A stretch of 64,000 nt of DNA from Acetomicrobium hydrogeniformans ATCC BAA-1850. Its GTDB lineage: Bacteria; Synergistota; Synergistia; Synergistales; Acetomicrobiaceae. Shown here one piece after another: positions 13,102 to 63,463 of this stretch. The stretch covers positions 1,684,001-1,748,000 of the forward strand of contig NZ_ACJX03000001.1 in NCBI RefSeq assembly GCF_000160455.2, written 5' to 3'. Position 1 is the first letter of the stretch; each line of letters begins with the position of its first letter. A model generated the notes under the pieces. It was not told the origin of the DNA. It made no database searches and saw only the letters and a program-made list of their open reading frames with translations. The position numbers and the translations under genes are program-made.

Positions 13102-13151
13102 ATATTTAACTTAAAAACAGAGATTGATAACAAAATGGGAGGGATGAAACA

Positions 13152-13805
13152 GTGGAAGCAAAGATAGGATGTCCGGTCCCGGAATTTAAAGCAATGGCTT
13201 TTGATAGGGGCAATATCAGGGAAGTATCGCATGCCGAGGCCAGGGGAAAGTGGTTAGTGTTATTCTTCTACCCCGGCGATTTTACTTTCGTGTGAACAAC
13301 CGAAATCTCGGCGGTTGCCGAGAGGTACGATGAATTTGAGGCCTTAGGGGCTTTAGTATACGGTATAAGCGTAGATTCGCCTTGGGTTCATAAAGTATGG
13401 GTTGAGCAGGAAATTTCTAAAGCAGTTCCCAGGGGAGTGCCCTTCCCAATGTTATTTGACGCAGGCGGCAGGATCGGAGAAAAATTTGGGGTCTATAGCG
13501 AGGCTGACGGCATCGACATCCGAGGAACATTCATAATTGATCCCGATGGCATACTTCAATGTATAGACATACTTCCGGCTCCATGCGGAAGAAGTGTGGA
13601 TGAAATTATTCGTCGCATTCAGGCTCTTCAGCACATAAGGGCTACATCAGCTAAAGAGGTTACGCCATCTGATTGGAGGCCGGGATGTTCTACCTTGAAG
13701 CCAAGCCCGGATATGGTTGGTAAAGTATGGCAATTCGTTGAAGAACAAAAGGGATCCCCAGGTGGCTCCAAGACCCAGCAACCTACGCCTCCCGGAGGAT
13801 GCTGA
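13152..13805 (+). CDS. prxU: Selenocysteine-containing peroxiredoxin (PrxU type), TGA read as Sec at residue 48
   Basis: A 217-aa AhpC/Prx-family peroxidase that reduces hydrogen peroxide and organic hydroperoxides in the cytoplasm. The frame runs from GTG 13152 (GGGAGGG 8 nt upstream) to TGA 13803-13805 and is interrupted only by TGA 13293-13295. This falls exactly at the peroxidatic cysteine in the motif GDFTFV-U-TTE. All other Prx features are intact on both sides: Thr45 of the TxxC motif, the conserved Arg124 (DIRGTFIIDP), GRSVDEIIRRIQALQ and PSDWRPG. A SECIS-like hairpin follows the TGA, and a tRNA-Sec gene is present at 62664. The usual resolving Cys position (VCP) is Thr171; Cys179 and the C-terminal Cys217 are possible substitutes. 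An ordinary annotation would truncate or split this gene. Confidence 0.9.
13293..13326 (+). promoter_or_regulatory. UGA (Sec) codon and bacterial SECIS-like hairpin
   Basis: The TGA at 13293-13295 is followed by CTCGGC (13307-13312), loop GGTT (13313-13316) and GCCGAG (13317-13322); T306/A323 may add a seventh pair. The loop begins with G G and starts 17 nt after the TGA. This fits the known bacterial rule for SelB-binding SECIS elements (small apical loop with a G in the first two positions, 16-37 nt from UGA). Confidence 0.8.
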
Positions 13806-13859
13806 GGGATATAGGCTATTCCTCCGTGCGAGGGACTAAATAAACTATTTTAAAAAACA

Positions 13860-13895
13860 GGGGAGAGGGCAACTTTAGAATTGTCTCTCCCCTTT
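13860..13895 (+). terminator. Terminator after the peroxiredoxin gene
   Basis: GGGGAGAGGGCAA (from 13860) pairs with TTGTCTCTCCCC (13881-13892) with one bulge and is followed by a short TTT. A stable hairpin with a weak T-tract. Confidence 0.6.
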
Positions 13896-62156: not shown

Positions 62157-62642
62157 TTGAACAAAATATTTCTCAATTATATGCCTCTAGTGTTGAAGAT
62201 GGCTTCTATGCTGTCTAACGGCGACCCGCATTTAAAAGAAGATTTGGTTCAAGAAGGTTATATAGGATTATATCACGCTATTAGAAAATATGATGAAAAT
62301 AGAGGGCATTTTCCGGCATTTGCAAGAACCTGCGTCCGTAATGCCATGATATCCTACTTGAGAAAAAACAAGACGAAGGATTACGTTTCTTTGGACGCTG
62401 CAGCGGAAGTATCGGACGATTTGGACGTGGATGAGAAGTTGAAACAAAAGGAATTTTTGAAGAATTTGTATGATTTGTTGACACCAATGGAGAAAGATGC
62501 TTTAAGAACCCTCCTTATCAGCGGCAACATCGCAGACGCTGCGAATCTTTTGTCATGGCCGTACAAAAAGATGGAGAATGCCATAACAAGGGTCAGGAAG
62601 AAAGCGAGGCTTTTAATGAAACTGGACAAGGAAGGGGAATGA
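62157..62642 (+). CDS. Sigma-70 family RNA polymerase sigma factor
   Basis: A 161-aa small sigma factor. Region 2 is clear (residues 10-75: LVLKMASML, EDLVQEGYIGLYHAIRKYDENRGHFPAFARTCVRNAMISYLRK), with a short linker and a region 4-like helix-turn-helix (about 105-155: LTPMEKDALRTLL, then AANLLSWPYKKMENAITRVRKKAR). It may direct a small regulon or derive from the SigH type; no anti-sigma gene is adjacent. TTG 62157 follows AAAGGAG. The selC gene begins 21 nt downstream. Confidence 0.82.
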   Translation: MNKIFLNYMPLVLKMASMLSNGDPHLKEDLVQEGYIGLYHAIRKYDENRGHFPAFARTCVRNAMISYLRKNKTKDYVSLDAAAEVSDDLDVDEKLKQKEFLKNLYDLLTPMEKDALRTLLISGNIADAANLLSWPYKKMENAITRVRKKARLLMKLDKEGE

Positions 62643-62663
62643 TTATAAGATTTAAAGGATCGA

Positions 62664-62761
62664 GGAGGCGGTTGGTCGCTGGTGCGACCCCCAGACTTCA
62701 AATCTGGTGTGGGTCAGCGAGGGCTGGCCCGGGTGGGTTCGATTCCCACGCGCCTCCGCCA
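62664..62761 (+). tRNA. selC: Selenocysteine tRNA (anticodon TCA)
   Basis: A 98-nt tRNA with all tRNA-Sec hallmarks. The anticodon loop CTTCAAA carries TCA (62698-62700). The D-stem has 6 bp (GGTCGC/GCGACC) closed by a 4-nt loop TGGT. The variable arm is long, with an 8-bp stem GGGTCAGC/GCTGGCCC and one G-T pair. The acceptor GGAGGCG/CGCCTCC has discriminator G and encoded CCA. The eighth acceptor pair would be G671-G750, a mismatch. Its presence shows the organism inserts selenocysteine at UGA, supporting the peroxiredoxin at 13152. selA, selB and selD are not in the window. Confidence 0.95.
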
Positions 62762-62776
62762 AGGAGGATTAACTTA

Positions 62777-63463
62777 TTGCAGACTATTAAAGTAGTCATC
62801 GCAAACAGGCATAGATTATATCGTGAATGCATAAAGCGTATGTTGGAGTTGGAAATGGATATTTCGGTGGTGGGAGAGATATGCCGTACTGAAGAGATGC
62901 GGGATGTTATCAGTTCCCTGCGCCCCGATGTCATTGTGTATGACGATGAGCTTCTAGATAAAGATAGTATTGGGCCCATTCGCGAACTCTCCAAAGAGTT
63001 TACGCCCTTTAGGTGTGTTTTGTTGACTTCCAAAGAGAATAATTATCACGATAGATTGCAGAATCTGAGGAAGTCAGGCATATATGGATGTATACTGAAA
63101 TCTTCCAAGGCAGAGGATCTTTTGTCGGCAATTCGTAACGTGGCCAAGGCCGATCCTTATAATGATCCAAGATTGGAGACATACAAAAAAACTGTCTCGC
63201 TAATCGAGGAAGATACAGCTCAACTTTATCACCTTACTCCACGGGAGAAGGAAGTCCTCTATTGGTTATCCCAGGGCTTTTCTAACCAGAACATCGCTAA
63301 GATAATGTTTTTGTCCGAAAAAACCGTTAAAAACCACGTCAGTCGCATTCTGAAGAAACTCGATTTTCCCGACAGAACGCAGGCCGCCGTTTTTGCGTGG
63401 AAGGCGGGGCTTGCTCAATACAGCCCCGACCAATTTTACGAAATCCTCGGCAAAACGCAGTAA
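62777..63463 (+). CDS. LuxR/NarL-type response regulator with degenerate receiver
   Basis: A 228-aa DNA-binding regulator. The receiver (1-120) keeps a candidate phospho-acceptor (Asp56/Asp57 in VIVYDDELL), Thr84 and Lys108. The acidic pair normally seen after strand 1 (ADDH) is Asn10-Arg11 (ANRHRLYREC), so Mg-dependent phosphorylation is doubtful. The C-terminal LuxR HTH is complete (LTPREKEVLYWLSQGFSNQNIA, SEKTVKNHVSRILKKL). TTG 62777 follows AAGGAGG, whose first A is the last base of the selC CCA. A longer frame upstream runs through selC and is not real. No histidine kinase is adjacent. Confidence 0.88.
   Translation: MQTIKVVIANRHRLYRECIKRMLELEMDISVVGEICRTEEMRDVISSLRPDVIVYDDELLDKDSIGPIRELSKEFTPFRCVLLTSKENNYHDRLQNLRKSGIYGCILKSSKAEDLLSAIRNVAKADPYNDPRLETYKKTVSLIEEDTAQLYHLTPREKEVLYWLSQGFSNQNIAKIMFLSEKTVKNHVSRILKKLDFPDRTQAAVFAWKAGLAQYSPDQFYEILGKTQ

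Follow-up and report, generated by a model that had tools for sequence, protein, structure and literature searches.

In peroxiredoxins (Prx), the peroxidatic residue attacks the peroxide, and a selenocysteine (Sec) in that position becomes a selenenic acid. Large thioredoxin reductases carry a C-terminal Cys-Sec redox tail, GCUG. Other selenoproteins with a C-terminal CU, KCU-star and SaoC, have been listed (PMC13188914). A 2016 count gave 91 Prx selenoproteins in 78 organisms (PMC5029168), and the Sec-containing family PrxU was first described in Eubacterium acidaminophilum, according to Soehling et al. 2001 as cited in PMC9312934.

Members of PrxU combine an AhpC-type core with a TxxU motif and a SECIS element directly after the UGA codon, and most of them lack a resolving Cys, whose place is taken by Thr or Ala. 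In most, the N-terminus is also extended by a Cys motif (GCARPTGALVGE, DGCVKPARGP and similar) and a charged or Pro-rich linker, and position −10 relative to Sec is a Cys (LCFYPGDFTFVU). The N-terminal Cys arm is also absent from some members and is thus not strictly defining.

The locus described here lies in a window of 64,000 nucleotides from Acetomicrobium hydrogeniformans ATCC BAA-1850, and by its sequence encodes a PrxU-type peroxiredoxin, a member of this described family. Its Sec at residue 48 is ordinary for PrxU; what is new is a C-terminal tail ending in Cys-UGA, a variant confined to this genus among the Prx examined. Our main reading, to which we assign a probability of about 0.6, is a PrxU with peroxidatic Sec48 and a resolving C-terminal arm that probably ends Cys217-Sec218-Gly-Ile.

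The prxU frame and its peroxidatic UGA

The gene and the elements related to its first UGA are as follows.

13152 to 13814, plus strand: prxU coding frame, 220 aa with stop TAG, if both UGA codons encode Sec
13152 to 13805, plus strand: alternative prxU coding frame, 217 aa, if translation ends at the second UGA
13137 to 13143, plus strand: Shine-Dalgarno-like GGGAGGG, 8 nt upstream of the GTG start, by inspection only
13293 to 13295, plus strand: UGA codon 48, read as the peroxidatic selenocysteine
13306 to 13323, plus strand: SECIS hairpin 1, TCTCGGC-GGTT-GCCGAGA, with its apical loop 17 nt after UGA48
13860 to 13895, plus strand: intrinsic terminator-like element, GGGGAGAG...CTCTCCCC-TTT, by inspection only
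62664 to 62761, plus strand: tRNA-Sec gene (selC), found by ARAGORN and matching Rfam RF01852 at 79.7 bits

Translation of positions 13152–13802 yields an AhpC-type peroxiredoxin frame whose sole interruption is the TGA at 13293–13295. With Sec read as Cys, the product matches the Pfam family AhpC-TSA and scores 281.7 bits against the NCBI PrxU model NF040737, above its cut-off of 270, over profile positions 36–229 of 233. Its AlphaFold model (pLDDT 86.9) has the Prx fold, and the nearest solved structures, by sequence as well as by predicted fold, are typical 2-Cys Prx. Residue 48 stands in the context GDFTFV-U-TTE, so that the TxxU motif is present as TFVU.

A match of at least 50% identity with one TGA inside was found in 34 Synergistota genomes (four members of the genus and 30 others); most of these matches were read residue by residue and the last few from the table only, and nearly all of those read have the TGA at codon 48. 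PrxU genes with TGA at the same position were also found in several other bacterial groups. The portion 3' of UGA48 is under purifying selection, with 19 synonymous versus 4 non-synonymous differences (99/336 sites) between two members of the genus.

Hairpin 1, folded alone, reaches −12.2 kcal/mol. Across 30 distinct sequences, paired cells amount to 95.7% and 31 cells are changed on both sides of the stem, a count that shuffling lowers to 6.7 ± 2.2 and that never exceeds 10 in slid controls, while the loop has GU at positions 2–3 in 30/30 aligned sequences. The same genome contains selA (574 bits) adjoining selB (374 bits), as well as selD (330 bits), which has an in-frame TGA of its own. Because the frame and its motif, the PrxU score, the TGA shared among the 34 genomes, the covarying SECIS, the sel genes, tRNA-Sec and purifying selection all agree, UGA48 is almost certainly decoded as Sec by SelA, SelB, SelD and tRNA-Sec, the frame being translated through it.

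Conventional translation yields the downstream ORF 13437–13805 alone, which would suit a pseudogene or a sequencing error, with the TGA at 13293 as a true stop and that ORF as a remnant. Since the TGA is shared by the Synergistota genomes and the hairpin after it covaries, this interpretation is ruled out for practical purposes; purifying selection on both sides of the TGA and the complete Sec machinery also speak against it. The earlier note had derived a Sec-type peroxiredoxin of a known family from the otherwise intact frame, a hairpin within SECIS range and a tRNA-Sec gene in the window, and on all these points its account holds: homologues keep UGA at the same codon, upstream and downstream halves are conserved as one protein, and selA, selB and selD all occur in the genome.

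When all TGA codons with open frames on either side were scanned, no further credible Sec gene emerged in the window. Outside it, selD (L050, G000 C1:1573181-1574113) is itself a selenoprotein gene, with the context SG-U-AAKLGP and a hairpin, GGTCC-GGC-GGACC, whose loop lies 17 nt after the UGA. Two other members of the genus (G011 and G014) have selA, selB and selD and show no match to the prxU product at E 1e-20; prxU is therefore not universal in the genus. The tRNA-Sec gene is overlapped by the ORF of a LuxR-type response regulator as listed (62555–63463). Domain matches of this regulator start at its residue 78, so its translation probably begins 3' of the tRNA-Sec gene.

The C-terminal tail and the second UGA

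Past the peroxiredoxin core, the frame continues into the following elements.

13731 to 13802, plus strand: C-terminal extension QFVEEQKGSPGGSKTQQPTPPGGC, found only in this genus
13803 to 13805, plus strand: second UGA, immediately 3' of a Cys codon, either a candidate Sec218 or the stop
13812 to 13814, plus strand: TAG, the stop codon if the second UGA encodes Sec, the tail then being ...GGCUGI
13819 to 13835, plus strand: candidate SECIS hairpin 2, TTCCTC-CGTGC-GAGGGA, −6.1 kcal/mol, with its loop 19 nt 3' of the second UGA

The extension is predicted to be disordered from residue 203 (residues 203–220, after the core), and the frame ends, in residues followed by codons, PTPPGGC-TGA-GGG-ATA-TAG. 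The succession Cys-TGA-Gly-Ile-stop (GGC-TGA-GGG-ATA-TAG), together with hairpin 2, is shared by the four prxU-bearing genomes of the genus. The earlier note was right in its Sec48 but took the TGA at 13803 for a plain stop, a point now in question with the next in-frame stop, TAG, at 13812–13814; its PrxU reading was accordingly sound but incomplete, the Cys-TGA tail having been overlooked.

The stretch QQPTPPGGC-TGA-GGI is invariant in the four genomes, and the linker before it varies. However, these genomes share 96–99% protein identity, too close for conservation or covariation to test a second Sec, and the whole 3' region as far as the terminator is conserved, not hairpin 2 alone (5 differences in 90 nt); conservation 3' of the second UGA is therefore unusable as proof. 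The genomes searched yielded no such tail in an independent lineage. Among about 90 Prx tails read, no other ends in Cys-UGA, and this ending was absent from the other Synergistota, including their Cys-type Prx, from some 200 genomes sampled across domains, from 400 genomes of one further phylum, and from viral contigs.

The published bSECIS model requires an energy of at most −7.5 kcal/mol and a loop 16–37 nt after the UGA (PMC13188914). Hairpin 2 agrees with this model in distance and loop, while its energy of −6.1 kcal/mol misses the limit. Its loop has GU at positions 2–3, the same as the loops of SECIS 1. When the RNA is folded from the second UGA onward, another hairpin (−8.4, z about 0) is favoured over hairpin 2; a ribosome standing on the second UGA would be expected to cover or melt this competitor.

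The background was taken from about 460 kb of this genome, made up of 20 sampled stretches and the window. In this sample a hairpin like hairpin 2 follows 1.4% of all TGA triplets and 3 of 302 TGA-ended ORFs of at least 100 codons, one of the three being hairpin 2 itself. As the Cys-TGA end was noticed first and the hairpin tested afterwards, this background of about 1% is the fair measure of how surprising the hairpin is. A scan of the same sample and a few sel and trx loci reported seven sites, among them Sec48, the Sec codon of selD and the UGA at 13803.

Taken together, the UGA at 13803–13805 is probably read as a second Sec, Sec218, served by a SECIS in the 3' UTR. The fuller proposal, a peroxiredoxin with two Sec in which a swinging arm at the C-terminus carries a Cys217-Sec218 pair that resolves the peroxidatic Sec48, the second UGA being taken by annotation for a stop and its SECIS lying beyond the true stop, is a tentative one, with odds slightly short of even. 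A PrxU with one Sec only, in which translation simply stops at the UGA at 13803 and the C-terminal Cys (PPGGC) serves as the resolving thiol, is less probable but still a serious contender. It would account for the weakness of hairpin 2 and its competing fold, it fits the single Sec with which PrxU is entered in the current inventory (PMC13188914), and at other places in the genome, too, Cys precedes a TGA stop (10/302 TGA-ended ORFs). Against it, the combination of Cys-TGA with a suitably spaced SECIS-like hairpin is unique among the TGA-ended ORFs of the sample, and none of five other listed Cys-TGA ORF ends (0/5) has such a hairpin.

With regard to stop codons at large, a Cys codon precedes the stop in 10 of the 302 TGA-ended ORFs versus 4 of 637 ORFs with other stops (at least 100 codons, spurious ORFs included). 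Some Cys-TGA ends in the genome sample might be unrecognised C-terminal Cys-Sec sites.

The candidate resolving arm and the proposed catalytic cycle

Although the window protein shares the general features of PrxU, it differs from most members in how an oxidised Sec48 could be resolved. Its match to NF040737 begins at profile position 36, leaving it without the N-terminal Cys arm (positions 1–35) and its GCxRPTGxxVGE-like motif; it has Phe in place of Cys at −10; and Thr171 (EVTPSDW) replaces the resolving Cys of the VCP motif. Instead, it has the Gly/Pro-rich C-terminal tail ending Cys-UGA. Its cysteines are residues 7, 137, 145, 179 and 217. In a tree of the core, the window protein forms a deep branch of its own outside all other PrxU, a placement made uncertain by the length of the branch, and for this reason the N-terminal arm is not called lost.

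Since this branch has Thr171 for the resolving Cys, and neither an N-terminal Cys arm nor Cys at −10, it is fairly probable that the C-terminal arm takes part in resolution. In the proposed cycle, Sec48 would reduce the peroxide and turn into selenenic acid. The flexible Gly/Pro-rich arm, probably ending in Cys217-Sec218-Gly-Ile with the terminal UGA read as Sec, would then deliver Cys217 to the oxidised Sec48, probably together with Sec218. The thioredoxin system would reduce the resulting selenenylsulfide or disulfide; a thioredoxin reductase gene (387 bits) is present in the genome. A thioredoxin-dependent peroxidase activity of the protein and the reach of the arm to Sec48 are both postulated, and cysteines 7, 137, 145 and 179 could act in place of the arm.

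The extension might also be a linker with no redox role, an external thiol reducing Sec48 directly as in Prx of the 1-Cys type. Direct reduction seems possible because some Synergistota PrxU (L014, L023, L024 and L028) lack both the N-terminal Cys arm and a resolving Cys, and the linker residues of the tail do vary. Nevertheless, the terminal QQPTPPGGC-TGA-GGI is unchanged in 4/4 genomes behind that variable linker, and the predicted structure gives the disordered arm a terminal Cys; we consider a linker without redox role the less probable reading.

Relation to other peroxiredoxins and terminal Cys-Sec tails

The closest structural and sequence matches of the window protein are the typical 2-Cys Prx and AhpC (Prx1–Prx4, Salmonella AhpC), from which it differs in having Thr171 for the resolving Cys of VCP and Sec for the peroxidatic Cys. 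The PrxU family may use redox arms at different ends, mostly N-terminal Cys arms and, here, a C-terminal Cys-(Sec) arm, and the tail variant is relevant to the turnover of Sec peroxiredoxins that have no resolving Cys.

If Sec218 is real, a tail like that of thioredoxin reductase has been joined to a peroxidase. The likeness to the GCUG tail of large thioredoxin reductases, with Cys-Sec at or near the C-terminus, concerns the mode of action only, as the proteins are unrelated. In KCU-star and SaoC, also unrelated, Sec comes after Cys at or close to the C-terminus, as proposed for the prxU tail. A true Sec218 would further imply that a terminal UGA after Cys can hide a second Sec, which is missed by searches that need downstream conservation.

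Another Synergistota Prx lineage (DFTYV-C/U-PTEL) often begins with Cys-Cys, as MDCC, MECC, MSCC or MEGCC (L104, L108, L109, L121, L124 and L126), and in two of its members (L104 and L105) the peroxidatic codon is UGA. The Cys-Cys N-terminus of these proteins may be another terminal dithiol arm.
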